DNA of 39,634 bases, from positions 1 to 39,634 of the forward strand of contig NZ_CAINTR010000212.1 in NCBI RefSeq assembly GCF_903853455.1. The letters are read 5' to 3'. A model generated the notes under the pieces. The model was not told the origin of the DNA. It did no database searches and saw only the letters and a program-made list of their open reading frames with translations. Numbering within the stretch: the first letter of the stretch is position 1; each line of letters opens with the position of its first letter. Origin of the DNA: an uncultured Magnetospirillum sp. Its GTDB lineage: Bacteria > Pseudomonadota > Alphaproteobacteria > Rhodospirillales > Magnetospirillaceae. Positions 5,280 through 31,548 of the stretch are shown here, piece after piece. Position numbers and translations under genes: made by a program.

Positions 5280-5378
5280 CCGACGAGCGCCAGCTCGGAG
5301 TTGCGGCCAAGGGCCGGCGCCGCTCGTGCGGCGAAAGCCAAGGGATGCGGGACGCATCCCGCCCGGCGACTGAGGGAC
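5280..5378 (+). repeat. Structured intergenic element, copy A
   Basis: This copy begins five bases after the nrtA stop and ends 25 bases before the nrtB start. It has hairpins CGAGC-GCCA-GCTCG (5284-5297), CGCCGC-TCGT-GCGGCG (5318-5333) and GGGATGCG-GGA-CGCATCCC (5342-5360). Conserved linkers include AAAGCCAAG and GCCCGGCGACTGAGGGA. It shares its skeleton with four other copies in the window. Within an operon it could act in RNA as a processing, stability or partial-termination element. Confidence 0.8.
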
Positions 5379-5403
5379 AAATTAAGTGAACGAGGATTCC
5401 ACC

Positions 5404-6483
5404 ATGAGCAGCATCACCCAGGCCGTCGGCACTCCGGCCACCGCTCCCAAGACCCCCGGCGTTTCCCTCGGCTACGCGCTGAACCGGGCCGGCGCCATCC
5501 TGACCGTGGCCGGTTTCGGCTGGGTGGTGCCGCTGGGCAAGCTGGCGGTGGGCAACCATCCCCGCCAGCAACTGGGCGAGTTGTGGCGTCAGCTGGGAGT
5601 GCCGGTGGCGGCCATCGGCCTGTTCCTGCTGGCCTGGGGGGTGCTGGCGCCCAAGGTTCACACCTCGCTGGGGGCGGTTCCGGGTCCGGTGGAGGTGTGG
5701 GCCCAGGTGGACAACCTGATCGCCGACCACCGCGCCGAACGGGCCAAGGAGGTGGCGTTCTACGAGCGTCAGGCCAAGCGCAACGCCGAGGCGGTGGCCG
5801 AGGGCGGCGAGGCCAAGTTCCGCAAGTTCACCGGCAAGCCCACCTATTTCGACCAGATCGCCACCAGCCTGGAGACGGTGTTCATGGGCTTCCTGCTGGC
5901 CACCGTGATCGCGGTGCCGCTGGGTGTCATGTGCGGCCTGTCCAAGGTGGTGAACTCGGCGCTGAACCCCTTGATCCAGATCTTCAAACCGGTGTCGCCG
6001 CTGGCCTGGCTGCCCATCGTCACCATGGTGGTGTCGGCCACCTATACCTCGGCCGATCCCATGTTCGAGAAGGCCTTCCTCAACTCGGCCATCACCGTGA
6101 CCCTGTGCTCGCTGTGGACGACCTTGATCAACACCGCCATCGGCGTCGCCTCCATCGACAAGGACCTGATGAATGTGGGCCGGGTGCTGAACCTGCCCTT
6201 GACCACCACCATCCGCAAATTGGTGCTGCCGTCGGCGCTGCCCTACATCTTCACCGGTCTGCGGCTGTCGCTGGGGGTGGGCTGGATGGTGCTGATCGCC
6301 GCCGAGATGCTGGCCCAGAATCCCGGCCTCGGCAAGTTCGTGTGGGACGAGTTCCAGAACGGCTCGTCGCAGTCGCTGGCCAAGATCATGGTCGCCGTCC
6401 TCACCATCGGCCTGATCGGCTTCCTGCTCGACCGGGTGATGATGGCGCTGCAAGCCATGTTCTCCCATTCCGCTCCCCGCTGA
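5404..6483 (+). CDS. nrtB: Nitrate ABC transporter permease
   Basis: A 359-residue integral membrane protein with a hydrophobic N-terminal pair of segments, a charged loop (about residues 100-150) and a C-terminal BPD_transp_1 core. The EAA-type cytoplasmic loop is visible as [21 protein letters not shown] followed by [20 protein letters not shown]. It forms the channel of the nitrate importer with NrtA and the double ATPase that follows 13 bases downstream. ATG at 5404 is chosen over GTG 5386 because GAGGA lies seven bases upstream. The N-terminal extension before the transport core is longer than in many NrtB proteins. Confidence 0.88.
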
Positions 6484-6496
6484 GGAAGGACCGATC

Positions 6497-8161
6497 ATGA
6501 CGATCCTCGAACTCAAGGGCGTCGCCAAGGGCTTTGGTGCCAATCCGGTGCTGCGCGACATCGACCTGGCCATCGCGGAGGGCGAGTTCATCGCCATCCT
6601 CGGCTTCTCCGGCTCGGGGAAGACCACCCTGGTGTCGCTGATGGCCGGGCTGACCCAGCCGGATAGCGGCCAGATCCTGTTGCGTGGCAAGCCGGTGACG
6701 GGTCCCGGCGCCGATCGCGGCGTGGTGTTCCAGAGCTACTCGCTGATGCCGTGGCTGACGGTGGCGGGCAATGTCGCCCTGGCGGTGGACGCCACCATGG
6801 CCGGCCGTCCCAAGGCCGAGCGTGCCGCCAAGGTCGCCAAGTATATCGCCATGGTCGGCCTCGCCCATGCGGCGGACCGCCGCCCGGCCGAACTGTCGGG
6901 CGGCATGCGCCAGCGGGTGGCGGTGGCCCGCGCCCTGGCCATGAGCCCCGACATCCTGCTGCTGGACGAGCCGCTGTCGGCGCTGGACGCGCTGACCCGC
7001 GCCAAGCTGCAGGACGAGATCGAGGCCATCTGGGAGCAGGAGAAGAAGACCGTCGTCCTCGTCACCAACGACGTGGACGAGGCGCTGCTGCTGGCCGACC
7101 GCATCATTCCGCTGAACCCCGGCCCCGGGGCGACGCTGGGCCCCGCCTTCAAGGTCGACCTGCCCCGGCCGCGCGACCGCTCCGCCGTCAACCACGACCC
7201 CGATTTCAAGCGCCTGCGCGCCGAGATCACCGAATATCTGATGGCGGTGGGCGTCGAGCGCAACGCCGAGGCCGGCCATGCCCGCCTGCTGCCCGACGTG
7301 GCCCCCGTCAGCCTGGGCGGTTCGCCCAAGGCCTATCGCGACGCCGGCCGGGTCAACAACCCCGAACGCTATGTGGAGTTCTCCCGGGTCAAGAAGATCT
7401 TCCCCACCCCCAAGGGGCCGCTGACGGTGGTGGACGGCTTCGACCTCAAGATGCACAAGGGCGAGTTCATCTCGCTGATCGGCCATTCCGGCTGCGGCAA
7501 GTCCACCGTGCTGACCATGACGGCGGGCCTGACCGAGGTGTCGGAGGGCGGCGTCATCCTTGACGGCCGCGAAGTCACCGACGCCGGTCCCGACCGCGCC
7601 GTGGTGTTCCAGGCGCCGTCGCTGTTTCCCTGGCTGACCGCGTTGGAGAACGTGGCGCTGGGGGTGGACCGGGTCTATCCCCGCGCGTCGCCCGCCGAGC
7701 GTCTGGACATCGTCTCCTACTACCTGGAGCGGGTGGGGCTGGCCGACAGCATGGACAAGAAGGCGGCCGACCTGTCCAACGGCATGAAGCAGCGGGTCGG
7801 CATCGCCCGGGCCTTCGCCCTGTCGCCCAAGCTGCTGCTGCTGGACGAGCCGTTCGGCATGCTGGACTCCCTGACCCGCTGGGAGTTGCAGGAGGTGCTG
7901 ATGGAGGTGTGGGCCCGCACCCGGGTCACCGCCATCTGCGTCACCCACGACGTGGACGAAGCCATCCTGATGGCCGACCGGGTGGTGATGATGACCAACG
8001 GCCCCAACGCCCGCATCGGCAAGGTGCTGCAGGTGGACATCCCGCGTCCGCGTTCGCGGCGCGCCCTGCTGGACCACCCCCGCTATTACCAATACCGCGC
8101 CGAAGTGCTCGACTTCCTCGACGAGTACGAGACCGGTGCCCCTGCCAAGAAGGCGTCCTGA
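6497..8161 (+). CDS. nrtCD: Nitrate ABC transporter, fused double ATPase
   Basis: One 554-residue chain contains two NrtD-like ATPase domains. Domain 1 has Walker [10 protein letters not shown] (36-44), Q-loop VVFQS, signature LSGGM (133-137) and Walker B LLLDEP (154-159). Domain 2 has Walker [10 protein letters not shown] (329-337), signature LSNGM (426-430), Walker B LLLDEP and H-loop VTHD (482-485). In domain 1 the H-loop His is replaced by Asn (VTND, N191), so the first ATP site may be slow or inactive. Cyanobacterial NrtC carries an NrtA-like tail instead; this chain has none. Each domain is followed by an NrtD-type extension (for example VDIPRPRSR). It starts 13 bases after nrtB, with GAGGAAGG upstream. 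Confidence 0.88.
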
Positions 8162-8163
8162 TC

Positions 8164-9363
8164 ATGGCTCTGGAAAAGAACCGTCTCAAGCTGGGCCTGG
8201 TGCCGCTGGTGGACGCGGCCCCCCTGGTGGTGGCCAAGGAGCGCGGCTTCTTCGCCGAGGTCGGCCTGGAGGTCGAGCTCAGCCGCGAGGCCTCGTGGGC
8301 TTCCATCCGCGACAAGGTGGCGGTCGGCGCCCTGGACGGCGCCCAGATGCTGGCGCCGCTGCCGCTGGCCATGACGCTTGGCTTGTCGGCCATCCGGGTG
8401 CCCATGGTGGCCGGCATGGCGCTCAATCTCGGCGGCAACACCATCACCCTGGCCAACGCCCTGTGGGAGCGCATGGACCCGGAAATCGCGCCGGCTCTCG
8501 CTCTCAAGGCGGTGATCGAGGCCGACAAGGCGGCCGGCCGCGAGCCCATGACCTTCGCCACCGTCTATCCCTTCTCGCCCCACTCCGCCGAGCTGCGGCT
8601 GTGGCTGGCCTCCGCCGGCATCGACACCGAGCGCGACATCCGGCTGGTGGTGGTGCCGCCGCCGCAGATGATCGCCTATCTCTCGGCCGGCAACATCAGC
8701 GGCTATTGCGTCGGCGAGCCTTGGGGCAGCCTGGCGGTGCGGCTGGGATTGGGTCGGGTCGCCGCCACCAGCCGCGACATCTTCGCCGGCCGGCTGGAGA
8801 AGGTGTTCGCCGTCACCCGCGACTGGGCCGACCATCATCCCGAGACCCATGTCGCCGTGCTGGAGGCCCTGATCGGCGCGGCGCGCTGGTGCGACGAGAA
8901 CCGCTGCGAGCTGGCCGAGCTGCTGGCCCAGCCCCACTACGTCAACGCTCCCGTCGACGCGCTGATGGCGCCGCTGCTGGGCGAATGCGGCCTGCCCAAG
9001 GATCTGGTGGTATTCCACCGCCATGCCGCCAACTTCCCCTGGCGCTCCCAGGCCATGTGGTACCTGGAGGAGATGAAGCGCCACGGCCTGCTGCCGGCCG
9101 AGACCGACTCGCGCGCCGCCGCCGACGCGGTCTTCCGTCCCGACCTCTACCGCATGGCGGCGGGAACCCTGGGGCTGCCGGTGCCGTTGGTGGACTACAA
9201 GACCGAGGGCACCCACGCCGAGCCCTGGACCCTGTTGCGCGCCAGCCGTCCCATCGCCATGGGTCCCGACCTGCTGCTGGGCGGCGCCGTGTTCGACCCC
9301 TTCCACCCGCCCGTCGTCGCCGACCCGTCATCCGACGCCGCCGACACAGGAGACCTGTCATGA
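8164..9363 (+). CDS. nasS: NasS-type cytoplasmic nitrate sensor
   Basis: The 399-residue product is a paralogue of NrtA: LKLGLVPLVDAAPLVVAKER, then GALDGAQMLAPLPLAM and GYCVGEPWG. It has no signal peptide; the fold begins within ten residues of the start MALEKNRLK. That is the mark of NasS, which in characterised systems binds nitrate in the cytoplasm and releases NasT. Its place inside the operon that NasT controls, and the nasT gene upstream, support this. It starts 2 bases after the nrtCD stop, and its TGA overlaps the nirB ATG. The alternative, a second transport-binding protein, is unlikely without an export signal. Confidence 0.82.
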   Translation: MALEKNRLKLGLVPLVDAAPLVVAKERGFFAEVGLEVELSREASWASIRDKVAVGALDGAQMLAPLPLAMTLGLSAIRVPMVAGMALNLGGNTITLANALWERMDPEIAPALALKAVIEADKAAGREPMTFATVYPFSPHSAELRLWLASAGIDTERDIRLVVVPPPQMIAYLSAGNISGYCVGEPWGSLAVRLGLGRVAATSRDIFAGRLEKVFAVTRDWADHHPETHVAVLEALIGAARWCDENRCELAELLAQPHYVNAPVDALMAPLLGECGLPKDLVVFHRHAANFPWRSQAMWYLEEMKRHGLLPAETDSRAAADAVFRPDLYRMAAGTLGLPVPLVDYKTEGTHAEPWTLLRASRPIAMGPDLLLGGAVFDPFHPPVVADPSSDAADTGDLS

Positions 9364-11804: not shown

Positions 11805-11808
11805 CGTC

Positions 11809-12228: not shown

Positions 12229-12230
12229 CC

Positions 12231-14783
12231 ATGCCTGACATCATCCGCACCACCTGCCCCTATTGTGGCGTCGGCTGCGGCGTCGTCGCCCAACCGGGCG
12301 AGGATGGCTGGGTGGTGAAGGGTGATCCCGAGCATCCCGCCAATTTCGGCCGGCTGTGCGTCAAGGGTGCCGCCCTGGCCGAGACCATCGGCCTCGACGG
12401 CCGCCTGCTCCATCCCGAGATCGAGGGACGGCGGATCGGCTGGGATGCGGCGCTGGACACCGTGGCGGAGCGATTTCGCGCGACCATCGCCGAGCATGGC
12501 CCCGATGCGGTGGCGTTCTACGTTTCCGGCCAGTTGCTGACCGAGGATTATTACGTCGCCAACAAGCTGATGAAGGGCTTCATCGGCTCGGCCAACATCG
12601 ACACCAATTCGCGGCTGTGCATGTCGTCCACCGTGGCCGGCCAGGTGCGCGCCTTCGGCTCCGACACCGTGCCCGGCTGCTATGAGGACATCGAACTGGC
12701 CGATCTGGTGGTGCTGGTCGGCTCCAACGCCGCGTGGTGTCATCCGGTGGTGTTCCAGCGGCTACTGGCGGAAAAGACGCGTCGCCCTGAATTGCGCATC
12801 GTGGTGATCGATCCCCGCCGCACCGCCACCGCCGAATGCGCCGACCTGCATCTGGCCATCCGTCCCGGCGCCGACGCGGTGCTGTTCAACGGCCTGCTCA
12901 CATACCTGACCGGTCAGTCAGGATTGGATATGGAGTGCGGCGTGCCGTCCTCCCAGGTGGAAACCTTCTTCTCCTGGTTCGCCGCCACCGAGAAGGTGGT
13001 CACCCTGTGGTCGCAGGGAATCAACCAGTCCTCGTCGGGCACCGACAAGGTCGATGCCATCATCAACTGCCATCTGGCCATCGGGCGCATCGGGCGGCCG
13101 GGCATGGGGCCGTTCTCCTTGACCGGTCAGCCTAACGCCATGGGCGGGCGCGAGGTGGGGGGGCTGGCCAATATGCTGGCCGCCCATATGGGCTTCGACG
13201 AAGCCGCCATCGACCGGGTCGGCCGGTTCTGGGCCGCGCCGCGCATGGCGACCAAGCCGGGCCTGAAGGCGGTGGACCTGTTCAACGCCGTCGCCGACGG
13301 CCGCATCAAGGCGCTGTGGGTGATGGCGACCAATCCGGCGGTCAGCCTGCCCGAGGCCGATCTGGTGAGAACCGCCATGGCGGCCTGCCCCTTCGTGGTG
13401 GTGTCCGATTGCGAGGCCGACACCGACACCACAAGGCTGGCGCATGTGCGGCTGCCGGCCCTGGCCTGGGGCGAGAAGGACGGTACCGTCACCAATTCCG
13501 AACGCCGCATCTCGCGCCAGCGGGCGTTCCTGCCGCCCCCCGGCGAGGCCAAGCCCGATTGGTGGATCGTCGCCCAGGTGGCGGCGCGACTGGGCTTCGC
13601 CGAGGCTTTCGCCTATGGCGGGCCGGGGGAGATCTTCGCCGAGCATTGCCGCCTGACCGCCTTCGAGAACTTTGGATCCCGCGACCTGGACCTGGGCGGG
13701 CTGGCCGGGATCGATTACGACCACCTGGAGCCGGTGCAGTGGCCGGTGGGACCGGACGGAACCGGCACGGCGCGGCTGTTCGGCGACGGCCGTTTCTTCC
13801 ATCCCGACGGCAAGGCCCGGATGATCCCGGTCACGCCACGCCCGCCCGCGTCGCTGGCCGACGAGGCGTTCCCGCTGATCCTCAACACCGGCCGCATGCG
13901 CGACCAGTGGCACACCATGACCCGCACCGGCCGTTCGCCCGTGCTGGCGGCCCATGCCCCCGAGCCGGCCCTGTCGATCCATCCCGACGACGCCGCCCGC
14001 TTCGGCCTGAGCGAGAACGGTCTGGCGCGGATCACGGCCAAGCGCGCCTCGGTGGTGCTGCGGGTGGCGGTCAGCACCGGCCAGCGTCCCGGCGAGGTGT
14101 TCGCACCCATCCACTGGACTGACCGGGCCGCCTCGGCGGCGGTGGTCGGCAGCCTGATCGACGCCGCCGTCGATCCGTTTTCCGGCCAGCCCGAACTCAA
14201 ACACGCGCCAGTGCGGGTGGAGCCCTTCGTCGCCGGCTGGCACGGCGTCCTGCTCAGCCGCGCCCCGGTGGATCTGCCGCGCGATATCTACTGGTCGCGG
14301 GCGGCCGGCACGTCCCATTCGGTGTGGCGGCTGGCCGGCGAGAGCGGCCAGGATTGGCCGGTGACGGCGCGGGATTGGTTGGGGCGGTCGGGCGAATGGA
14401 TCGAGTTCCTCGACCCCAGCCGGGGCCACTACCGCGCCGCCCGGCTGGTGGAGGGACGGCTGGAGGGGGTGCTGTTCATCTTCCGCTGGGCCACCGATTT
14501 CTCGCCCGACTGGGTGGCGGCCGCCTTCGGCCGCGCCGCCATCACCGGCGAGGAGCGCGGAACCCTGCTGGCGGGAGCGCCGCCCGGCGGCGACCGTGGC
14601 GGCGACAAGACGGTTTGCGCTTGTTTCGGGGTCGGTCTGGCCACCATCCGCGCCGCCATCCGCGACCACCGGCTGGCCAGTGTCGGCGAAATCGGCGCCC
14701 TGCTGAAAGCCGGCACCAATTGCGGGTCCTGCGTGCCGGAGCTCCGCGTCATCCTGGCCGAGACGGCGGACCGGGTGGCGTAG
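12231..14783 (+). CDS. nasA: Assimilatory nitrate reductase catalytic subunit
   Basis: An 850-residue molybdenum bis-MGD enzyme that reduces nitrate to nitrite. The N-terminal [4Fe-4S] ligands are C9, C12, C16 and C43, and the likely Mo ligand is C130 in SRLCMSS. The long molybdopterin-binding region follows, and the chain ends in a BFD-like [2Fe-2S] domain (C796, C798, C831, C834). No signal peptide is present, so the enzyme is cytoplasmic. No separate NADH-linked electron-transfer subunit is encoded here; the BFD domain probably accepts electrons from a ferredoxin or flavoprotein elsewhere. It is the last gene of the operon, with nirD 2 bases upstream and a convergent gene 10 bases downstream. 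Confidence 0.93.
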   Translation: MPDIIRTTCPYCGVGCGVVAQPGEDGWVVKGDPEHPANFGRLCVKGAALAETIGLDGRLLHPEIEGRRIGWDAALDTVAERFRATIAEHGPDAVAFYVSGQLLTEDYYVANKLMKGFIGSANIDTNSRLCMSSTVAGQVRAFGSDTVPGCYEDIELADLVVLVGSNAAWCHPVVFQRLLAEKTRRPELRIVVIDPRRTATAECADLHLAIRPGADAVLFNGLLTYLTGQSGLDMECGVPSSQVETFFSWFAATEKVVTLWSQGINQSSSGTDKVDAIINCHLAIGRIGRPGMGPFSLTGQPNAMGGREVGGLANMLAAHMGFDEAAIDRVGRFWAAPRMATKPGLKAVDLFNAVADGRIKALWVMATNPAVSLPEADLVRTAMAACPFVVVSDCEADTDTTRLAHVRLPALAWGEKDGTVTNSERRISRQRAFLPPPGEAKPDWWIVAQVAARLGFAEAFAYGGPGEIFAEHCRLTAFENFGSRDLDLGGLAGIDYDHLEPVQWPVGPDGTGTARLFGDGRFFHPDGKARMIPVTPRPPASLADEAFPLILNTGRMRDQWHTMTRTGRSPVLAAHAPEPALSIHPDDAARFGLSENGLARITAKRASVVLRVAVSTGQRPGEVFAPIHWTDRAASAAVVGSLIDAAVDPFSGQPELKHAPVRVEPFVAGWHGVLLSRAPVDLPRDIYWSRAAGTSHSVWRLAGESGQDWPVTARDWLGRSGEWIEFLDPSRGHYRAARLVEGRLEGVLFIFRWATDFSPDWVAAAFGRAAITGEERGTLLAGAPPGGDRGGDKTVCACFGVGLATIRAAIRDHRLASVGEIGALLKAGTNCGSCVPELRVILAETADRVA

Positions 14784-14793
14784 TAGGCCTTGC

Positions 14794-15138: not shown

Positions 15139-15191
15139 GATGCACTCTCTCCAAATTTATATCGGCGAGCCACTGACGTGGCGCGCCTTTG

Positions 15192-15287
15192 CCCTCAAGC
15201 GCCGGGCGCCGCCCTCCGGCGGCTTGGCTTTCGCGCCACGCGGCGCGGCGGCCTTTGGCCTTGCCTCCGAGCGCATCCGCTCGTCGG
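15192..15287 (-). repeat. Structured intergenic element, copy B
   Basis: Read on the minus strand it has the conserved order: CCGACGAGC...GCTCGG hairpin, GGCAAGGCC, hairpin CGCGCC-GCGT-GGCGCG, linker GAAAGCCAAG, hairpin CCGCC-GGAG-GGCGG, then CGCCCGGCGCTTGAGGG. It lies between the divergent lipoprotein (14794-15138) and GT39 (15392) genes and faces the lipoprotein start, about 54 bases away. Confidence 0.8.
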
Positions 15288-15391
15288 AATTCAGTCTCGA
15301 GGTATAGCGGGATGGCGGATCATCGACAACCGAGTCGTCTTCATGCTAAAGGCGGCGGCGCCCGCTCGTCGCGTATCCCCGGAGGCATGTA

Positions 15392-20401: not shown

Positions 20402-20429
20402 GACGCCGCCCCGGTCCCGGGGCGGCGTC
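20402..20429. terminator. Bidirectional terminator
   Basis: GACGCCGCCCCG (20402-20413) and CGGGGCGGCGTC (20418-20429) form a perfect 12-bp stem around GTCC. It lies between two converging genes (ending at 20366 and 20454). On the minus strand the hairpin is followed by TTCGTTTG, and on the plus strand by GGTCGTTG, so termination is better supported for the minus-strand gene. Confidence 0.7.
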
Positions 20430-20453
20430 GGTCGTTGTAGAGGCGGGAAGATG

Positions 20454-20657: not shown

Positions 20658-20752
20658 CGTCATGTCCTCGTAAATCATCCTGGCCGCAGTTTACAACCAT
20701 TGTTGCGCCGTTGCCAGTTCCGACACATGCCGTTCTCATGGTAGAACCGCGC

Positions 20753-22876
20753 ATGGCAGCGACACCCTCTCGCCCCAAGCGCGGCGGCAATCCCTTCACC
20801 CTCTCCGTCGACCCGTCTGATCGGCTGATTCCCAGCGGCGCGCGCGGTGCCGACGACGGCGCTCCGCCGCCGCCGCCGCCACCGTCGAAGCGCGGCCGCA
20901 CGCCACCCAAGCCGCCGAAGGGGCCACGCAAGGCCAAGGCCGGCGGAGGCGGCGGTTCGGGTCGCCGCTGGCTCAAGCGGGTGCTGATGTGGGGGCTGAC
21001 CCTGGCCATCTGGGTCGGCATCGGCGTGGGGGGCGTGGTGGCCTATTACGCCATCGACTTGCCCGACATCGACCGCATGACCGCCACCACGCGGCGGCCC
21101 AGCGTGGTGTTCCACTCGGTGGAGGGCGACGTCTTCGCCGCCTATGGCGACCTCTACGGCGAGCCGCTCGACCTTCCCGACATCTCGCCCTTCATCGTCC
21201 AGGCGGTGCTGGCCACCGAGGATCGCCGCTTCTACAGCCATTGGGGCTTCGACCCCATCGGCCTGGCGCGCGCTTTCTATACCAATCTGCGGGCTGGCCA
21301 CATGGTCCAGGGCGGCTCCACCATCACCCAGCAGTTGGCCAAGAACCTGTTCCTGACGCCGGAGCGCAACCTCAAGCGCAAGGTGCAGGAACTGCTGATG
21401 GCGCTGTGGTTGGAAAAGCGCTTCACCAAGGACCAGATCCTGTCCTTGTATCTTAACCGGGTCTATCTCGGCTCCGGCACCTTCGGGGTGGACGCGGCGG
21501 CCAAGCGCTATTTCGACGTCTCGGCCCGCAAGCTCGAACTCTACCCCTCCGCCGTCCTCGCCGGCCTGCTGAAGGCGCCCAGCCGCTACAGCCCGCTCAA
21601 CGACCCCGACGCGTCGCGCAAGCGCACTGCCGACGTGCTCCAGAACATGGTCAACGCCGGCTATATCGACCAGAAGACCGCCGACGAGACCCAGGTCATC
21701 GGCGGGTCGCAGTTCATCCGCCGCCAGCTTCCGGCCGGGCGCTATTTCGCCGACTGGGTGATGAGCCATCTCGACCAGTTCGGCGAGGTCTCCGGCAAGG
21801 ACATCGTGGTCCAGACCACCTTGGACATCGGCCTGCAGCGTAAGGTCGAGGCCAGCCTCGCCGCCATGATGGCGGGAGCCGGCGCCAAAGCCAACGCGTC
21901 CCAGGGCGCGGTGGTGGTGATGAGCCCCGACGGCGCGGTGCGCGCCATGGCCGGCGGCAAGGATTACGACGACAGCCAGTTCAACCGCGCCACCCAGGGG
22001 CTGCGCCAGCCCGGCTCGTCGTTCAAGCCGTTCGTCTACCTGACCGCCATGGAAAAGGGCTTCACCCCCGACGACACCTTCGAGGACGCCCCCATCAAGC
22101 TGGGGAATTGGGGCCCCGGCAACTACACCGGCAAGTATCTCGGCCGCATCACCCTGCGCCAGGCCCTGGCCGAATCCATCAACACGGTGGCGGTGCGTCT
22201 GGTCGAGGAGGTGGGGCCCAATCAGGTGATCGCCACCGCCCGGCGGCTGGGCATCACCTCCGACCTGCGCAATGACGCCACCCTGGCGCTGGGCACCAGC
22301 GAGGTGTCGCTGGTGGAACTGACCACCGCCTACGCCTCCTTCGCCAATGGCGGCAACGGCGTCACCGCCTATGCGGTGGCCCAGATCACCGATCCGGCCG
22401 GCCATGTGCTGTATCAGCGCTCCGGCGGCGGCTTCGGACAGGTGATCACCCCCACCGCCCTGGCGCGCATGCACGACATGATGACCGCCGTGATCCAGCA
22501 GGGTTCGGGCAAGGCGGCCCGACTCGACCGTCCCGCCGCCGGCAAGACCGGCACCACCCAGGATTACCGCGACGCCTGGTTCATGGGTTTCACCGCCGAC
22601 TACGTGGCCGGGGTGTGGATGGGCAACGACGATTACCGCGTCGAGATGAAGAAGGTCACCGGCGGCGGTCTGCCCGCCCAGTTGTGGAAGCAGGTGATGG
22701 TGGCCGCCCATAAGGGACTGCCGGTCCATCCGCTGCCGACGCCGGAGGTTCCGTCGGCCGAGGCGCCGAACGCCGCCGAGGAGTTCGTCACCGGCGCCGC
22801 CGAGGCGGGAGCCGAGGCGGTACGCGGCATTGGCAGCGCGATCGATGGTCTGCTGAAGGGGATCTTCGGGCGGTAG
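20753..22876 (+). CDS. Class A penicillin-binding protein (PBP1a-like)
   Basis: A bifunctional peptidoglycan synthase of about 707 residues. The cytoplasmic N-terminus is Pro-, Lys- and Arg-rich (PPPPPP near 38-44), and one membrane anchor spans about 75-100. The GT51 glycosyltransferase domain has TEDRRFYSHWG (catalytic Glu about 156) and QGGSTITQQLAKNLF. The transpeptidase domain has SxxK at 422-425 (PGSSFKPF), SxN at 475-477 and KTGT at 598-601. It polymerises and crosslinks glycan strands in the periplasm. The start is uncertain; ATG 20753 (MAATPSRP) and ATG 20738 both lack a clear ribosome binding site. Confidence 0.9.
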   Translation: MAATPSRPKRGGNPFTLSVDPSDRLIPSGARGADDGAPPPPPPPSKRGRTPPKPPKGPRKAKAGGGGGSGRRWLKRVLMWGLTLAIWVGIGVGGVVAYYAIDLPDIDRMTATTRRPSVVFHSVEGDVFAAYGDLYGEPLDLPDISPFIVQAVLATEDRRFYSHWGFDPIGLARAFYTNLRAGHMVQGGSTITQQLAKNLFLTPERNLKRKVQELLMALWLEKRFTKDQILSLYLNRVYLGSGTFGVDAAAKRYFDVSARKLELYPSAVLAGLLKAPSRYSPLNDPDASRKRTADVLQNMVNAGYIDQKTADETQVIGGSQFIRRQLPAGRYFADWVMSHLDQFGEVSGKDIVVQTTLDIGLQRKVEASLAAMMAGAGAKANASQGAVVVMSPDGAVRAMAGGKDYDDSQFNRATQGLRQPGSSFKPFVYLTAMEKGFTPDDTFEDAPIKLGNWGPGNYTGKYLGRITLRQALAESINTVAVRLVEEVGPNQVIATARRLGITSDLRNDATLALGTSEVSLVELTTAYASFANGGNGVTAYAVAQITDPAGHVLYQRSGGGFGQVITPTALARMHDMMTAVIQQGSGKAARLDRPAAGKTGTTQDYRDAWFMGFTADYVAGVWMGNDDYRVEMKKVTGGGLPAQLWKQVMVAAHKGLPVHPLPTPEVPSAEAPNAAEEFVTGAAEAGAEAVRGIGSAIDGLLKGIFGR

Positions 22877-22889
22877 ATTATCCCATGTC

Positions 22890-22913
22890 TCGCTGATCGT
22901 AACCGATCAGCGA
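22890..22913 (+). terminator. Stem-loop after the penicillin-binding protein gene
   Basis: TCGCTGATCG (22890-22899) and CGATCAGCGA (22904-22913) form a perfect 10-bp stem with loop TAAC, 14 bases after the stop codon. No T-run follows, so it may be a Rho-assisted terminator or 3'-end stabiliser. It abuts structured element copy E. Confidence 0.5.
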
Positions 22914-22914
22914 C

Positions 22915-22975
22915 GCCCTCAAGCGGCGGGCGGGCGCGAGCGCCCTTGCCTTCCGCGGCATGGGCCGCGCGGCGC
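22915..22975 (-). repeat. Structured intergenic element, copy E (5'-truncated)
   Basis: On the minus strand it has hairpin CGCGGC-CCAT-GCCGCG, linker GAAGGCAAG, hairpin GGGCG-CTCG-CGCCC and the terminal GCCCGCCGCTTGAGGG. The first hairpin (GACGAGC...) is missing. It lies between the convergent penicillin-binding protein and HTH genes. Confidence 0.65.
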
Positions 22976-22986
22976 GTTGCGCCTAA

Positions 22987-23021
22987 CCAGATCTCGATGA
23001 GTTAGGATCATCGAGATCTGG
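22987..23021. repeat. 14-bp perfect inverted repeat
   Basis: CCAGATCTCGATGA (22987-23000) pairs perfectly with TCATCGAGATCTGG (23008-23021) across GTTAGGA. It ends two bases before the stop codon of the minus-strand HTH gene. It may be that gene's terminator (no T-run is seen) or a protein-binding palindrome. Confidence 0.6.
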
Positions 23022-23023
23022 TG

Positions 23024-23254
23024 TTACGCCCGCAGCGCCTTGCGGGTGACCTGCGCCCGGATCTCGGTGGGAAGTTGTTCCAGAAGCTTCAACAGCGCGC
23101 CGATGCCGATCGGCACGCGCGAACGCCCATCGGCCCACCGCCAGACCGTGGTCGGCGCCGGCTGCTGTTCGCCGAGATCGTCGAGCAGGCGCCCCAGTGC
23201 CGCCTGCGACAGTCCGAGCCTTTGCAAGGCCTCGGTGAATTCGTCCTCAGTCAT
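23024..23254 (-). CDS. Small HTH protein
   Basis: A 76-residue protein starting MTEDEFTEALQRLGLSQAAL. Residues about 5-45 fit a Cro/C1-type helix-turn-helix: LGLSQAALGRLLDDL as helices 2-3 and TTVWRWADGRSRVP as the recognition helix and turn. The rest is a short helical tail (LLKLLEQLPTEIRAQ). Similar small HTH proteins are often of phage or plasmid origin. Its upstream region (23255-23435) is much more AT-rich than the surroundings. Targets are unknown; the perfect palindrome just beyond its 3' end is one candidate. Confidence 0.6.
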   Translation of the reverse strand: MTEDEFTEALQRLGLSQAALGRLLDDLGEQQPAPTTVWRWADGRSRVPIGIGALLKLLEQLPTEIRAQVTRKALRA

Positions 23255-23435
23255 CTATAGCTGCCCCACCGGAAATCCCCCAACCCAGGCGCGATTTATC
23301 ACGACGGAAAAGTGACGTGCGCGCGGGGGTCTGTCAATATCAGCCCGATGGCATAAGTAATAAATCGTATCAAAAGATCAGTTACCTAGCCGCATTCGGA
23401 GATTTTATAACACAATTTGTCTGGTAATAGCTGCT
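23255..23435. other. AT-rich intergenic stretch
   Basis: No gene is seen. The stretch is clearly less GC-rich than its neighbours, especially 23340-23430 (GGCATAAGTAATAAATCG and nearby). It holds the promoter region of the HTH gene and the 3' flank of the recombinase gene. Being next to a tyrosine recombinase and a phage-like HTH gene, it could be an old integration scar, but I see no direct-repeat att core. Confidence 0.4.
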
Positions 23436-24350: not shown

Positions 24351-24364
24351 GGCGGGTTCCGGAC

Positions 24365-25162: not shown

Positions 25163-25185
25163 GGAGCCCTCCCTTATCCTTGTTG

Positions 25186-25282
25186 TCCCTCAAGCGCCGG
25201 GCGGGCCACCTCCGTGGCCCTTGGCTTACACGCCATGAGGCGTGGCGGCCTTCGGCCTTGCCTCCGAGCGGATGCTCGTCGG
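25186..25282 (-). repeat. Structured intergenic element, copy C
   Basis: On the minus strand it reads CCGACGAGC-ATCC-GCTCGG, GGCAAGGCC, hairpin CACGCC-TCAT-GGCGTG, linker AAGCCAAG, hairpin GGGCCAC-GGAG-GTGGCCC and CGCCCGGCGCTTGAGGGA. It begins seven bases after the carbonic anhydrase stop and ends about 24 bases before the lipoprotein start, the same position relative to genes as copy A. Confidence 0.8.
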
Positions 25283-25286
25283 TGTC

Positions 25287-26057
25287 TCACATGACGTCGA
25301 GCAGCAGCTTGCGGCGATTGAGCGGCATGACCGGCCGGGCGTTGTTGGCGAACAGCGCCCCGAAGCGGGCAAGCTGCTCGGCCGAGGCGGTGATGGCTTG
25401 GCGATAGACCACCCACTGCACCACTTCGCTGCACGGCGGCGTGGTCAGCGATCCGGCGTAGCGGAAGGTGACGACGTCCTTGGGCAGCAGCATGGTGGGG
25501 TCGAGCATGCCGCCGGCGGTGACGGCCTCGCCGCCCTTGGCGGGCATGACCTGCCAGATGGCTTCCAGCGCCGGATTGGCGGCGCCCTTGGCGATCATCA
25601 CCCCCAGCACCGCCAACCCGCCATCGGCTGCCTTGTGGACGAAGTGGCACTCCATGTCGAAGGCGGCGCCATCGACGGTGTGTTCGCTGGGGTGATGGAA
25701 GTGGAATTGCAGCAGGTCATAGGACTTGCCGTCCAGCGCCAGGGTGCCGCCGCCGGCACCATCCACCTGGATGGTGTGGCCGTTGTTCAGCACCTTGAGC
25801 GGCAGCGGCCGCCAGGCCGGCACCGGGTCGCCCATGATGGCGGCGATGGGCTTGGTCAGGTCGATGGGGGATTGTTCCCGGCCCATGGAGCAGGCGGCGT
25901 ATTCCGGCGACAGGGTGCCCCAGTCGGCAGGGCCGCCATGGCCCTCATAGGCCCAATGGGCGCCCTCGGAGGCCAAGGCTTGGGAGATGCTGGACCCGCA
26001 GGTGCCGCACAGACAGGCGGCGCCGGTGGCATGACGGAGAAACGAGCGACGATCCAT
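25287..26057 (-). CDS. Alpha-carbonic anhydrase, Tat-exported
   Basis: A 256-residue enzyme interconverting CO2 and bicarbonate. The N-terminus MDRRSFLRHATGAACLCG is a twin-arginine signal, so it acts in the periplasm. Hallmarks of the alpha class are present: WGTLSPEYAACSMGREQSPI, zinc ligands in LLQFHFHHPSEH and in MECHFVHK, and the LTTPPCSE segment near the substrate pocket. ATG 26057 follows GGGAAGGGTGCCC; a GTG two codons upstream is possible. A LysR-type regulator gene lies 70 bases upstream on the same strand and may control it or be co-transcribed with it. Confidence 0.92.
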   Translation of the reverse strand: MDRRSFLRHATGAACLCGTCGSSISQALASEGAHWAYEGHGGPADWGTLSPEYAACSMGREQSPIDLTKPIAAIMGDPVPAWRPLPLKVLNNGHTIQVDGAGGGTLALDGKSYDLLQFHFHHPSEHTVDGAAFDMECHFVHKAADGGLAVLGVMIAKGAANPALEAIWQVMPAKGGEAVTAGGMLDPTMLLPKDVVTFRYAGSLTTPPCSEVVQWVVYRQAITASAEQLARFGALFANNARPVMPLNRRKLLLDVM

Positions 26058-26127
26058 GGGCACCCTTCCCGAAATTTGGCTGATGTCGCAGCCAGCCTAT
26101 CGCGGAAGTGGGGAAGCGTCCATTGGG

Positions 26128-26985: not shown

Positions 26986-27030
26986 GGCGCGTCCGGGTAG
27001 CGCAGCCTGGATGCTGCACTGCAATATGAA

Positions 27031-27048
27031 GTTGCGTTGTAACGCAAC
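27031..27048. promoter_or_regulatory. Palindrome before the LysR gene (putative operator)
   Basis: GTTGCGTT-GT-AACGCAAC is an 8-2-8 inverted repeat 46-63 bases upstream of the LysR start. LysR proteins often bind such dyads (T-N11-A) upstream of their own promoters. Binding is inferred. Confidence 0.5.
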
Positions 27049-27081
27049 CGCACCCGAACTTCAACCGTGTGCCGGGGTCAG

Positions 27082-27124
27082 ATCAATAATATTGATGCAT
27101 GGGTGGGTTTTACCCCACCCATGC
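27082..27124. terminator. Hairpins between the HPF and LysR genes
   Basis: GCATGGGTGGG (27097-27107) and CCCACCCATGC (27114-27124) form an 11-bp stem with loop TTTTAC, just downstream of the minus-strand HPF gene ending at 27156. Next to it lies ATCAAT-AAT-ATTGAT (27082-27096). On the minus strand the hairpin is followed by AT-rich sequence, so it may terminate the HPF transcript; the small AT-rich dyad could also be part of the LysR promoter. Confidence 0.5.
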
Positions 27125-27155
27125 GGGCAATATACAGTGGCAGGCGCCGGGCGGG

Positions 27156-27518
27156 TTAGGCGCGGACGCGGGCCTTCACGTCGCCGCGCTGGCGCTCGAC
27201 GTATTCCTTCAACTGACGCTCCATGCTGACGAAGGTTTCGCGCAAGGCCACGTAGATGTCTTCGTTCACGTGGCTATCCTTGGGGTCGCGCTTGACCACC
27301 AATTCGGTGCCGGGCACCGTGATGTCCAGACGGATATGAAAAGGTTCACCCTTGTGGTGGAGGTTGGACGTGTTGCGGTGGTGCGCTTCGATCACCACGC
27401 GACAGCTGGTGATTCGATCGAAGAGTAACTCCAGTTTCGCCACCTTCTCGCGGATGCGGGTTTCGACGGCGTCGGAATGATCGATACCGTGAAAGGTGAT
27501 CTGGAGGGGAATCTGCAT
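27156..27518 (-). CDS. hpf: Ribosome hibernation-promoting factor, short form
   Basis: A 120-residue protein of the HPF/RaiA (sigma-54 modulation) family: MQIPLQITFHGIDHSDAVET, then VAKLELLFDRITSCRVVIEA and LDITVPGTELVVKRDP. It binds the 30S decoding centre and silences ribosomes in resting cells. Only the N-terminal domain is present; the C-terminal dimerisation domain of long HPF, common in alphaproteobacteria, is absent. ATG 27518 is preferred because GGAG lies six bases upstream; MM at 27533 is possible. It is divergent from htpG with about 250 bases between, and rpoN is not adjacent. Confidence 0.82.
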   Translation of the reverse strand: MQIPLQITFHGIDHSDAVETRIREKVAKLELLFDRITSCRVVIEAHHRNTSNLHHKGEPFHIRLDITVPGTELVVKRDPKDSHVNEDIYVALRETFVSMERQLKEYVERQRGDVKARVRA

Positions 27519-27698
27519 CAACGTCTCCATCATATCGGTCGCCGGAACGCCCTGATTTCCTCGGGCGTCGTGCAACTCGGTTCTTTGTCGCGCCTGCGAA
27601 CGGTCACTAGGGCGAATTCCGGGGCGCCATACATACCCATTCGCGGACGCTAAGGCAACGCCCGGAACGAACATCCATTGTTTCGGAGAATCGCGACA

Positions 27699-27730
27699 CT
27701 TGCAACCTTCCCCAGCTCGCCTCATATCAG
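27699..27730 (+). promoter_or_regulatory. Putative sigma-32 (RpoH) promoter of htpG
   Basis: CTTG (27699-27702) and CTCATATCAG (27721-27730), 18 bases apart, fit the alphaproteobacterial heat-shock consensus CTTG-N17/18-CYTATNTNNG with one mismatch. Transcription would begin about 37 bases before the htpG ATG. Confidence 0.55.
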
Positions 27731-27772
27731 GTCGCGCCCAAACACATACCATTTGTCGGAGATTAACTGGTC

Positions 27773-29641
27773 ATGGCCGAAGAGAAGCGTCAATTCCAGG
27801 CGGAAGTCGGCAAGCTGCTCGACATCGTCGTCCACTCGCTCTACTCCAACAAGGAGATCTTCCTGCGCGAGCTGATCTCGAACGCCTCGGATTCCTGCGA
27901 CCGGCTGCGTTACGCCGCCATTACCGAGCCCGAGCTGCTGGCCGGCGAGGGTGATTTCCAGATCCGCCTGATTCCCGACGCGGAAGCCGGCACCCTGACC
28001 ATCGCCGACAACGGCCTCGGCATGACCCATGACGAGCTGATCGCCAATCTGGGCACCATCGCCAAGTCGGGCACCGCCGAGTTCCTGTCGCGCCTGACCG
28101 GCGATTCCAAGAAGGACGTCAGCCTGATCGGCCAGTTCGGCGTCGGCTTCTATTCCGCCTTCATGGTGGCCGAGGAGGTCACGGTGGTGACCCGCAAGGC
28201 CGGCGAGGCCAAGGGCTGGCGCTGGACCTCGGACGGCAAGGGCGAGTTCACCGTCGCCGAGGCCCCCGAGGCGGCGCGCGGCGCGTCGATCACCCTGAAA
28301 CTGCGCGACGGCGAGAAGGAATTCACCGAGGCCTACCGCCTGAAGTCCATCGTCAAGCGCTACTCCGACCACATCGCCATTCCGGTCACCCTGACGGAGG
28401 GCGACAAGGAGGCCGAGACCATCAACGCGGCCAGCGCCCTATGGACCCGGCCCAAGTCCGAGATCACCCCGGAGCAGTACACGGAATTCTACCACCACGT
28501 CGCCCATGCCTTCGACGAGCCCTGGTCCACCCTGCACTTCAAGGCCGAGGGCGCCATCGAGTATAGCGGCCTGCTCTACGTGCCGTCGTCCAAGCCCATG
28601 GACATCTTCCATCCCGACCGCAAGCAGCATGTGAAGCTGTATGTGCGCCGGGTGTTCATCACCGACGATTGCGAGGAGTTGCTGCCGCCTTACCTGCGCT
28701 TCGTGCGCGGCGTGGTCGACAGCCAGGACCTGCCGCTGAACGTCAGCCGCGAGATGCTCCAGCACAATCCGGTGCTGGCCAAGATCCGCAGCGGTCTGGT
28801 GAAGCGGGTGCTGGGTGAGCTGAAGAAGAAGGCCGAGGATGCCGAGGGCAATTACGCCGCCTTCTGGGAGGCCTTCGGCGCCGTCCTCAAGGAGGGCATC
28901 TACGAGGATTTCGAGCGCCGTGACGAGATCCTGGAACTGTGCCGCTTCCGCTCCACCCACGGCGACGGCCTGGTGACCCTGGCCGAGTATGTGGGCCGCA
29001 TGAAGGAGGGGCAGGAGGCCATCTACACCATCACCGGCGACGACCTCGCCCAGCTCAAGAAGAGCCCGCAGTTGGAAGGCTTCGTGGCCAAGGGCGTCGA
29101 GGTGCTGCTGCTGACCGATCCCATCGACGAGTTCTGGGTGTCGGCCATCCCCAAATACCAGGACAAGGAACTGCGCTCGGTGGCCGCCGCCGGTGCCGAC
29201 CTCGGCAAGGTCAAGGCCCCCGAGGGCGCCGACGACAAGAAGGAAGCCGAGGCTCCCGCCGACGAGCTCACCACCCTGATCGAGGCGCTCAAGCTGGCCT
29301 TGGGCGACAAGGTCAAGGATGTGCGCGGCTCCGAACGCCTGACCGAATCCGCCGTCTGCCTGGTGGCCGATTCCGGCGATATGAGCATGCATCTGGAAAA
29401 GCTGCTGCGCGCCCACGGCCAGGCCGCCGGCGAGCGGGTCCGCATCCTGGAGATCAACCCTCGCCATGCCCTGATCAAGGGGCTCGCCGCCAAGGTCAAG
29501 GCGACCGGCACCGATGCCCGGATCGAGGACATGGCCGCCCTGCTGCTGGATCAGGCCCGCATCGTCGAGGGCGAGCCCCCCGCCGACCCGGTCGCCTTCG
29601 CCCGGCGCATGGTCTCGGTGATGGAACTGGGACTGGTGTAG
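27773..29641 (+). CDS. htpG: Molecular chaperone HtpG (Hsp90)
   Basis: A 622-residue cytosolic Hsp90. The N-terminal GHKL ATP-binding domain is clear: FLRELISNASDSCDRLRY, ADNGLGMTHDEL and IGQFGVGFYSAFMV. The middle domain has the catalytic-loop Arg region (LPLNVSREMLQHNPVL) and the C-terminal dimerisation domain follows. The length is normal. It remodels client proteins under heat and other stress. The start at 27773 has GGAG about 11 bases upstream. A heat-shock-type promoter lies 43 bases upstream, and a nested palindromic element follows the stop. Confidence 0.97.
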   Translation: MAEEKRQFQAEVGKLLDIVVHSLYSNKEIFLRELISNASDSCDRLRYAAITEPELLAGEGDFQIRLIPDAEAGTLTIADNGLGMTHDELIANLGTIAKSGTAEFLSRLTGDSKKDVSLIGQFGVGFYSAFMVAEEVTVVTRKAGEAKGWRWTSDGKGEFTVAEAPEAARGASITLKLRDGEKEFTEAYRLKSIVKRYSDHIAIPVTLTEGDKEAETINAASALWTRPKSEITPEQYTEFYHHVAHAFDEPWSTLHFKAEGAIEYSGLLYVPSSKPMDIFHPDRKQHVKLYVRRVFITDDCEELLPPYLRFVRGVVDSQDLPLNVSREMLQHNPVLAKIRSGLVKRVLGELKKKAEDAEGNYAAFWEAFGAVLKEGIYEDFERRDEILELCRFRSTHGDGLVTLAEYVGRMKEGQEAIYTITGDDLAQLKKSPQLEGFVAKGVEVLLLTDPIDEFWVSAIPKYQDKELRSVAAAGADLGKVKAPEGADDKKEAEAPADELTTLIEALKLALGDKVKDVRGSERLTESAVCLVADSGDMSMHLEKLLRAHGQAAGERVRILEINPRHALIKGLAAKVKATGTDARIEDMAALLLDQARIVEGEPPADPVAFARRMVSVMELGLV

Positions 29642-29654
29642 GGTTCACGCCAGA

Positions 29655-29767
29655 ACGTCGTCATGGCCGGGATTAAGTCCCGGCCATCCTCCACGCCGTG
29701 CCGCAACTCCAAGCCTCGAGGGGCGGAACGGCGTGGATGCCCGGAACACGTCCGGGCATGACGATGT
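29655..29767. repeat. Nested palindromic intergenic element after htpG
   Basis: ATGGCCGGGA and TCCCGGCCAT form one hairpin, GATGCCCGGA and TCCGGGCAT another; CCACGCCGT and ACGGCGTGG pair across the middle, and GTCGTCATG and CATGACGAT pair near the outside. Such CATGGCCGGG...CCCGGGCATGAC units are widespread alphaproteobacterial intergenic repeats. It separates convergent genes and could terminate both transcripts. Confidence 0.7.
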
Positions 29768-29807
29768 TAGGTAATCCGAGAGACGGGATGGATGCCTTCC
29801 GGATCCC

Positions 29808-30833
29808 TCAGGGCACGAGCGCCGGAATCGGCAGCGGCGGCACCCGCATGATGCGGATCTGACCGGCGGTCAGGATGCCGTCTTGCAGGGTCAGCGGCAA
29901 CGACAGGGTCGGTCGGCCTTGCAGGTCGGGGCGGGCCATGATGGCCAGCATGACTTGGGCGGTGGAGGCCATCTTCGGTTCCACCAGACCGGCCTGGACC
30001 AGCCGGACCATGACTTCTCCGGCGCCGCGGACGCGGGCGCTGAGGGCGACCTGCGGCTGCAAATGGGCGTCCAGCGCCAGGGTGCCGTCGGCGTCCAGGG
30101 ACAGCGGCAGCCAGTCCAGGGCGATGCGGTCCAACTCGACGGTGCCGCCGTCGTTGCTCCAGACCGTCACCGCCGCCAGCGGTGGCGAGCCGGTGATGGT
30201 GCCCATCACCCTTGCCTCCACCTGGAAGCTGTCGATGCGGCGGGCCAGCGGCTGCCCGGCGATGTCGGGCAGGTCGAGGCCGCGCAGCCCCAGGGTCAGC
30301 CCGGCCGACGGAGTCTCGTGACCGGTGTCGGGGGGATCGAGCCGGTCGAAGGTGACGGTGGCCTCGGCCAGGGCCAGGGGCTCGATTCCGGGCTGTTCCA
30401 GCACCAGGGTGGAGGCGGCGAAGGTGAAGCCGGCCAGGGTGCCGTCGGTGTGCAGATGCAGCCGGGTCTGGGCGGTTCCCGCCGTCACGATGCCCGACCA
30501 GCCGAGGCCGGCCAGGATGTGCTGTCCCGCCATGTCGATGGTGACGTTCAGCGGCGTCGGCAGCGGAATGGTGATGGCGATGCCGTCGCCGTGCCAGGAC
30601 AGCCCCGCCGGGCTGCGGAGATCGACGCCACTCAGCCGGGCGGTGACGGCGTAGGGAAAGCCGCTCATCTGGACGGAATCCATCTCCACCGTCCAGCCGG
30701 CGGCCCGGCGCTGTTCCGCGAAGGCGTCGATTCCCTTGCGCAACTCCCCCGCCACGTGGAACCAATAGGCGCTGACGCCGGCCACGATCAGGCCGGCCAG
30801 GATCAGGACGATGAGACGGAGTCGAAGGGACAT
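29808..30833 (-). CDS. DUF2125-family exported or anchored protein
   Basis: A 341-residue protein starting MSLRLRLIVLILAGLIVAGV, one N-terminal membrane segment (uncleaved or signal), then a long beta-rich region: YWFHVAGELRKGIDAFAEQR, MSGFPYAVTARLSGVDL and repeated LxLxL patterns. This matches the DUF2125 family of alphaproteobacteria, function unknown, with an AsmA-like beta character that suggests an envelope role (inference). ATG 30833 lies within the palindrome CATG, whose other strand is a possible start of the next gene, so the two divergent starts overlap. Confidence 0.72.
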   Translation of the reverse strand: MSLRLRLIVLILAGLIVAGVSAYWFHVAGELRKGIDAFAEQRRAAGWTVEMDSVQMSGFPYAVTARLSGVDLRSPAGLSWHGDGIAITIPLPTPLNVTIDMAGQHILAGLGWSGIVTAGTAQTRLHLHTDGTLAGFTFAASTLVLEQPGIEPLALAEATVTFDRLDPPDTGHETPSAGLTLGLRGLDLPDIAGQPLARRIDSFQVEARVMGTITGSPPLAAVTVWSNDGGTVELDRIALDWLPLSLDADGTLALDAHLQPQVALSARVRGAGEVMVRLVQAGLVEPKMASTAQVMLAIMARPDLQGRPTLSLPLTLQDGILTAGQIRIMRVPPLPIPALVP

Positions 30834-31413
30834 GGAGTCCACCACAGGGAATGCAGCCCCATCCTGTACCTTGCCTGGAGGTATCGGACAAGCGCCACCC
30901 GATTTCTGGGTGTTCGCCTACGGCTCGCTGATGTGGCGCCCCGACTTCGAGCATGAGGAGGCGCGGCCGGCCCGCCTCGCCGGCTATCACCGTGCCATGT
31001 GCATTCTGTCCAACATCTATCGCGGCACCGACGAGCGGCCGGGTCTGGTGCTGGGGCTCGACCGGGGCGGCTCCTGCTTGGGCCGCGCCTTCCGGGTGGC
31101 GGCGGGGCAGGCCGAGGCGGTGCGGGCCAAGCTTTACGAGCGCGAACTGGTCACCGGCGTTTATTTCCCGCGCATGCTGCCGGTGCGGCTGGACGATGGC
31201 CGCCGGGTCGCCGCCCTGGCCTTCGTCGCCGACCGCCGCCATGTCCAGTATTTTCCCGCCGGCGATCCGGCGCGGGCCGCCGCCCTGATCCGCCAGGGCA
31301 TCGGCAAAGCCGGCACCGCCCGCGACTACCTCGCCTGCACGGTGGAACACCTGACGGCGCTGGGCATCGCCGACGGCGCCCTGCACCGGCTGCTGGCGTT
31401 GGTGGAGGGGTAG
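30832..31413 (+). CDS. Gamma-glutamylcyclotransferase (ChaC-like)
   Basis: A protein of up to 193 residues that should cleave gamma-glutamyl compounds, probably glutathione, to 5-oxoproline. The family signature FAYGSLMWRPDFEHEEARPA binds the glutamyl group, and a catalytic Glu is expected in AKLYEREL. RGTDERPGLVLGLDRGGSC is typical of ChaC. The start is uncertain: ATG 30832 has AAGGG close upstream, ATG 30811 is longer, and the conserved part begins only at about 30894. With ATG 30832 the gene would overlap the divergent DUF2125 start codon, leaving no promoter space. Cytoplasmic; structured element copy D follows. Confidence 0.8.
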   Translation: MESTTGNAAPSCTLPGGIGQAPPDFWVFAYGSLMWRPDFEHEEARPARLAGYHRAMCILSNIYRGTDERPGLVLGLDRGGSCLGRAFRVAAGQAEAVRAKLYERELVTGVYFPRMLPVRLDDGRRVAALAFVADRRHVQYFPAGDPARAAALIRQGIGKAGTARDYLACTVEHLTALGIADGALHRLLALVEG

Positions 31414-31438
31414 CGGGGAAGGTTGGATAGGGGACGTG

Positions 31439-31548
31439 CCGACGAGCCCGTGAAACTTTCACGGGCTCGGACTTGCGGGCAAGGCCCGGCGCGCCTCGTG
31501 GCGCGAGAGCCAAGGGATTCGGAGAATCCCGCCCGGCGATTGAGGGAC
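31439..31548 (+). repeat. Structured intergenic element, copy D
   Basis: The first hairpin is expanded: CGAGCCCGTGAAA (31443-31455) pairs perfectly with TTTCACGGGCTCG (31457-31469). Then come GGCAAGGCC, hairpin CGCGCC-TCGT-GGCGCG (31490-31505), linker GAGAGCCAAG, hairpin GGGATTC-GGA-GAATCCC, and GCCCGGCGATTGAGGGAC. It lies between the convergent ChaC-like and ecm genes and may terminate either. Confidence 0.8.

Follow-up and report, generated by a model that had tools for sequence, protein, structure and literature searches.

The window analysed here, a stretch of 39,634 nt (contig NZ_CAINTR010000212.1, positions 1 to 39,634) from the 5.18 Mb, 223-contig genome of an uncultured Magnetospirillum sp. 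(assembly GCF_903853455.1), holds five copies, A to E, of an element made of four or five hairpins with conserved linkers between them. We consider it probable that these belong to a non-autonomous mobile family, resembling miniature inverted-repeat transposable elements (MITEs), of Magnetospirillum and part of its relatives. A covariance model with a 79-position core (R1) was built from 22 regular, pattern-picked copies, with locus L012 skipped and duplicates by context left out. This model scored the five window copies at 98.8, 95.2, 94.3, 78.8 and 52.6 bits, with the next match in the window at 13.7; copies A, B, D and E are themselves rows of its source alignment, and only copy C, at 52.6 bits, is an independent match. 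The scores and inspection of the sequence place all five copies where a preliminary description of the window had put them. The copies and their parts are as follows.

5280-5379 (+): copy A, type I without the fifth hairpin (R1 match, inspected sequence); hairpin 1 5284-5297, hairpin 2 5304-5316, hairpin 3 5318-5333, hairpin 4 5342-5360, outer helix 5337-5367, tail 5368-5379
15160-15289 (-): copy B, type I with the fifth hairpin (R1 match and hairpin scan after the tail); hairpin 1 15268-15283, hairpin 2 15250-15260, hairpin 3 15232-15247, hairpin 4 15208-15223, tail 15190-15200, hairpin 5 15164-15187
22881-23023 (-): copy C, type IV, complete (R1 match; DNA fold z = -8.1); hairpin 1 22986-23022, hairpin 2 22971-22983, hairpin 3 22954-22969, hairpin 4 22932-22945 enclosed by the outer helix GGC/GCC 22925-22950, hairpin 5 22890-22913
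23024-23026 (-): TAA, left half of a 3-bp direct repeat around copy C
22878-22880 (-): TAA, right half of the same repeat
25184-25284 (-): copy D, type I without the fifth hairpin (R1 match); hairpin 1 25265-25278, hairpin 2 25247-25257, hairpin 3 25229-25244, hairpin 4 25203-25220, tail 25184-25195
31438-31548 (+): copy E, type I without the fifth hairpin (R1 match); hairpin 1 31443-31469, hairpin 2 31476-31488, hairpin 3 31490-31505, hairpin 4 31514-31530, tail 31538-31548

The inspection redrew several of these copies. The main part of copy B is as first described, and its end had been set too short: the fifth hairpin extends it to about 15160, where it ends in GATA followed by TAA, with no matching TNA (T, any base, A) exactly at its left end. 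Copy C, earlier called truncated, is a complete element of another subtype; it has the fifth hairpin, and TAA flanks it on either side. The placement after one gene's stop and shortly before the next start, given for copies A and C, applies to copy A, which begins 4 nt past the own-strand TGA stop (5273-5275) of the gene at 3851-5275 with a start close by. It does not apply to copy C, which adjoins the stop of a plus-strand gene ending at 22876, lies antisense to that gene in a convergent gap and has no nearby start; copy D fits instead, starting 2 nt past the TGA stop (25287-25289) of a minus-strand gene on its own strand. The linkers said to be shared are not identical in all five copies, copy C carrying GAAGGCAAG and CGCCCGCCG.

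A complete element reads TACC, hairpins 1 to 4, TTGAGGG, hairpin 5 and GGTA, and spans about 145 bp, with GGAG or TTGG preceding hairpin 2. Numerous copies stop at TTGAGGG(A/G)CA and lack hairpin 5; these probably derive from the complete element by 3' shortening. A hairpin of at least 7 bp starting within 26 nt past the tail is present in 86 of 239 copies and in 34 of 234 control windows taken 300 bp further on, so that some of the 86 are due to chance.

The family is large and extends beyond the host genome, which by its HtpG relatives falls near Magnetospirillum/Paramagnetospirillum, the best match with a name being Magnetospirillum sp. SS-4 at 90% identity. Model R1 has at least 150 matches there, every scored candidate being a match (E <= 2.5e-6), and a strict pattern finds 48 copies, 24 per strand, with none for the reversed-pattern control. 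The relatives set comprises 40 genomes, counting the own one, and with no more than 118 candidates scored in each, R1 matches turned up in 25 of them: 16 of 17 within the genus, 4 of 7 in the rest of the family and 5 of 16 in the rest of the order. A survey with model R2, which used 35 of 80 named loci and scored at most 134 candidates per genome, gave matches in 23 of the 35 genomes reached through these loci. Copies numbered at least 83 in P. kuznetsovii, at least 46 in P. caucaseum, at least 83 in Telmatospirillum siberiense, at least 63 in Novispirillum itersonii and at least 22 and at least 28 in M. fulvum; the Azospirillum genomes held 0, 1 and 0, those of Stella 0 and 0, and Sneathiella litorea 0. 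In G016:C1, a nearly complete chromosome, the element strands may be unevenly spread by hand count.

We rejected a known Rfam family as the identity of the element, with no match at gathering score in the window and, in four loci, none at the elements even when E was allowed to reach 1. Carriage of copy A, the copy searched, by plasmids or phages was likewise rejected, as it had no match in either the 'plasmids' or the 'phages' set in distant mode. Among the best-ranked open-licence PMC papers listed, judged on titles and the starts of abstracts, no Magnetospirillum repeats of such kind were found, and Magnetospirillum does not occur in the accessible part of a stem-loop survey (PMC2267715).

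Covariation of the stems and its causes

The stem covariation noted between the window copies holds genome-wide, where the covariance-model search yields many copies whose stems stay paired. In an alignment of 138 own-genome copies, from 90 loci chosen so as not to overlap, 98.9% of cells are standard pairs against 75.6% in shuffles, two-sided changes occupy 447 cells against 139, and the covariation score is 0.440 against 0.096 in shuffles and 0.017-0.051 with slid partners; none of 500 shuffles reaches the observed value of any of the three. The number of pairs with two-sided change (11 versus 9.4 shuffled) and of further pair types (32 versus 29.7) are in slight excess, with 12 and 57 of 500 shuffles, respectively, reaching the observed counts. 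A second sample of 103 copies from two other genomes, G009 and G016 (100 of 107 loci, L293 and L352-L357 being left out), showed 97.2% pairing versus 75.2% and 313 two-sided cells versus 90.5, and no shuffle matched any of the five measures, in an alignment that used the first-sample model and thereby favours structure.

A structure-free mutual-information scan of the 138 copies, run on the alignment fitted to R1, returned base pairs of hairpins 2-4 as all of its top eight column pairs. Single-sequence folds suggested that the 5' linker pairs with the tail over a long distance; this pairing is not among the top coupled columns. Besides the helices listed at first, one had been overlooked, a GCC/GGC helix around hairpin 4 that is swapped to GGC/GCC in copy C and others: its middle pair is exchanged on both sides in 6 of 138 own-genome copies and in 14 of 99 distinct rows from the two other genomes. 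Hairpin 1, in a census covering 101 of the 138 copies, was found in 75, with 56 distinct arms of 4 to 17 bp, and 65 of the 75 are without mismatch (the finder tolerates at most one). Single-copy RNA folds give z from -4.0 to 0.06 and are not striking for every copy. The fold of the element is genuine and under constraint.

The constrained fold is the part of the preliminary description that stands; its further step, that compensatory change implies selection for structure, was too quick. RNA-level selection would be expected to leave more G-U pairs, and these make up about 0.8% of pairs, weakly above A-C. Filtering removed 4 duplicate rows, 3 rows in which three or more cells were not Watson-Crick and, from hairpin 4, the pair that closes the loop; this left 33 G-U, 17 A-C and 28 other mismatches in 4200 cells (G-U over A-C, P = 0.03). 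Unfiltered, the counts are 42 G-U and 29 A-C (P = 0.15). As a strand test, the comparison of G-U with A-C is ambiguous. Covariation alone is no proof of RNA function, because G-U pairs are rare and because template switching or gene conversion could also match the arms.

An account in which the matched arms arise mainly from DNA mechanics, by template switching within a hairpin or gene conversion of whole stems under weak structural selection, addresses the cause of the covariation and is compatible with mobility. The rarity of mismatched intermediates agrees with it, as do discrete hairpin 3 stem types common to several copies and, by eye, five two-sided stem changes between G009 and G016 orthologs (L256/L255, L303/L316 twice, L290/L327, L264/L263; the pair L307/L324 was excluded, its 5' halves being different), four of which are C-G to G-C or the reverse. 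In the accessible part of one study, template switching is described as a process that can both generate hairpin stems and fix them, and it can give matched changes (PMC8794818). Other observations speak against this account: linker and loop positions are mostly conserved while stems vary, the last loop base of hairpin 3 is T in 129 of 130 copies having a base there, which makes inverted loops at most rare, the largely perfect and diverse arms of hairpin 1 amount to more than a few shared types, and at least three ortholog changes are one-sided by eye (L272/L277, L264/L263, L256/L255). We hold DNA mechanics to be a possible, though not the expected, main cause; template switching, gene conversion and selection are not separable from the present comparisons.

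Ends, target repeats and stop codons

The preliminary description had overlooked the probable mobile nature of the element, together with its terminal ends, the 3-bp target repeat of its complete copies and its frequent insertion at stop codons. A comparison of flanks between G009 and G016 marked nine sites as empty, of which eight were inspected as occupied/empty pairs and the ninth (L333/L274) carries other sequence; at seven other orthologous sites the element is present in both genomes. The compared loci were chosen for carrying elements, and these counts are therefore no estimate of turnover. Two of the pairs are clean insertions: L286 reads TCA-TACC...GGTA-TCA where L358 has a single TCA, and L304 reads TAA-TGCC...GGTA-TAA where L367 has TGA.

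These two empty sites give consistent terminal-end junctions. Complete copies start with TACC or a variant and end with GGTA or a variant after the fifth hairpin, which constitutes short, variable terminal inverted ends, and the copies in which both ends could be recognised measure 131-184 bp. An identical TNA flanks 18 of the 28 such copies, 9.1 being expected (P = 2e-4), in a count that includes 19 rows from nested-module loci and possibly repeats some copies; without L328, which its own empty site contradicts, the figure is 17 of 27 against 8.9 expected (P = 1e-4). Of 80 type I copies, 26 have the left TNA at one particular offset, whereas each of 12 other offsets accounts for 1-7. Remnants of an element's 3' end lie upstream of 16 of the 138 copies, tandem copies included.

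As a separate observation, head-to-tail tandem arrays with like spacers are present at L075, L090, L069 and L332.

The target is often a stop codon. In half of the copies for which an end was recognised (48 of 96), the TNA coincides exactly with a called gene's stop codon, 36 of 62 on the left (distance 0) and 13 of 62 on the right; of the other TNAs no more than 40 bp away, 16 of 233 do so. The background, 133 of 1373 TNAs (9.7%), was limited to element-free gaps and their bordering stops, because purging of within-gene insertions enriches stops among the survivors. A test independent of TNA recognition uses TAG, a stop codon that does not fit TNA: TAG is depleted where the stop ends no more than 7 nt from the 5' stem (9 of 64 versus 130 of 441, P = 0.010), and at 8-80 nt from the 5' stem it is not (17 of 57). 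Insertion appears to duplicate, and so to preserve, the stop codon; target preference and retention bias at stop codons are indistinguishable.

Several results weigh against the mobile reading or narrow it. Six of the eight empty sites show insertion without a clean TNA repeat, and the insertion at L328, compared with L360, has an 8-bp direct repeat in its place. Among the 236 copies in which a 5' hairpin is present, a TNA could be recognised on the left in just 62 and on the right in 62; the motif itself served to identify the ends, and orthologous and tandem copies are not independent. In type I, recurrence of the same TNA to the right of the tail gives a weak signal (10 of 26 where 5.0 are expected, P = 0.007), and a motif-free scan for direct repeats gave weak signals only. 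Antisense stops near the tail are not depleted in TAG (33 of 88, P = 0.16), and the genes in all these counts were called by a custom codon-usage script. A parent transposon was not found among the two families looked for, PF01797 and PF01609: the own genome has no match to Y1_Tnp (PF01797), which 4 of 17 genus genomes do have, and a scripted check of the three DDE_Tnp_1 (PF01609) loci showed no such ends. No longer, gene-carrying element lay between such ends in the regions inspected.

For a mobile family of this kind, a transposase supplied in trans would cut at TNA with a 3-nt stagger. The target repeat would then restore the stop codon and leave the gene undamaged, so that such insertions could accumulate. 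The mobilising machinery, or a host factor, may recognise the folded single strand through its hairpins, linkers and loops rather than through its stem sequence.

A second motif, of two hairpins, is mostly nested in elements of the family. An exact pattern finds 21 own-genome copies (L232-L252; for example, L233:1501-1542), and by eye 20 of these lie inside hairpin-repeat elements in the orientation of the element. They occupy the loop of either hairpin 2 or hairpin 3, or a place next to hairpin 4 inside the outer helix. A more specific version of the mobile reading, which we think rather unlikely, would join these features: an element recognised by shape and moving as a folded single strand of DNA or RNA, whose stems drift while staying paired, whose loops take up the second module in one orientation, and whose machinery picks the TNA of a stop codon, the insertion rebuilding the stop.

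Gene context and a possible RNA role

The elements are largely intergenic. Of the 138 own-genome copies 6 lie within called genes and 7 at their edges; with each gap counted once, 46 are tandem sense, 25 tandem antisense, 38 convergent and 10 divergent. The 103 copies of G009 and G016 include 1 within genes and 2 at edges, with 46, 19, 27 and 6 in the same classes. Between co-directional genes the sense orientation is in excess (46:25, P = 0.017, in the own genome; 46:19, P = 0.001, in the two others). In the own genome, divergent gaps are underrepresented (10 of 119 versus 72 of 317, P = 0.0005) and convergent gaps overrepresented (P = 0.005). In the two others the shortfall of divergent gaps is not significant (6 of 98 versus 18 of 145, P = 0.13), and convergent gaps show no enrichment (P = 0.55). 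This pattern fits an RNA role and an insertion or retention bias alike.

For the repetitive extragenic palindromic (REP) sequences of E. coli, protection of mRNA 3' ends, processing and operon tuning have been proposed, and the same functions could be imagined for a host-useful RNA element in the 3' untranslated region, kept by host selection and compatible with a mobile origin. The sense excess in the own genome and in the two others taken together would suit such a role, and so would the depletion of divergent gaps where it is significant and the conservation of loop and linker bases while stems vary. About one third of the tandem copies are antisense, however, presence varies between orthologous sites, G-U pairs are as scarce as noted above, and the Rfam searches of the window and of the four loci gave no match at the thresholds stated. 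An intrinsic terminator in the sense orientation, the one examined, was rejected, since the positions past the tail are A-rich in 127 copies and form no T-run. Taken together, this evidence leaves host selection for an RNA element doubtful.

Among the neighbouring genes of the window, 12231-14783 (+) encodes a molybdopterin oxidoreductase of the nitrate reductase/formate dehydrogenase type, and the C-terminus of this protein has a weak match, below the curated cut-off, to bacterioferritin-associated ferredoxin.

Relation to known repeat families

With tens to over 100 near-replicate copies per genome, the family offers a natural experiment that sets structural selection against mutation mechanics as causes of compensatory change, a question that bears on how far covariation may be taken to prove an RNA function. 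The stop-codon result, should it hold, would also describe a gene-sparing route of insertion, in which a 3-bp repeat at TAA or TGA restores the stop.

REP sequences, and the REP doublets forming hairpins (REPINs), spread by a REP-associated tyrosine transposase (RAYT) of the Y1 type, share with the present element its high copy number, its hairpins and its extragenic position, and the GGAG before hairpin 2 resembles the REP tetranucleotide. A REP is, in the accessible part of one account, a single palindrome of 20-50 nt preceded by GTAG or similar (PMC8266576). Here we find instead a multi-hairpin unit of about 145 bp, far larger than one hairpin, with terminal ends and a 3-bp direct repeat in complete copies. 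The lack of a Y1_Tnp match in the own genome, and its presence in so few of the genus genomes, led us to reject RAYT-driven REPs, and we judge membership in the REP/REPIN class highly improbable.

Inverted ends and target repeats are common features of MITEs and of insertion sequences. With bacterial MITEs our probable mobile family has in common that it is small, non-coding, multi-copy and intergenic, with short terminal inverted ends, a target-site repeat in complete copies and presence/absence between related genomes. It differs from them in that no parent transposon was found for it among PF01797 and PF01609, in its four to five covarying hairpins with free stem sequence, and in a TNA target that is often a stop codon.

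Mitochondria provide a further comparison. The repetitive hairpin and double-hairpin elements of mitochondria, as far as the accessible part of their description goes (PMC2800124), are likewise single or multiple hairpins in intergenic positions whose frequency differs in close Allomyces species, and they include two types set apart by complementary substitutions; those of Allomyces are described as having no flanking duplications. The present family is bacterial, has a defined 3-bp target repeat and shows a preference for stop codons.

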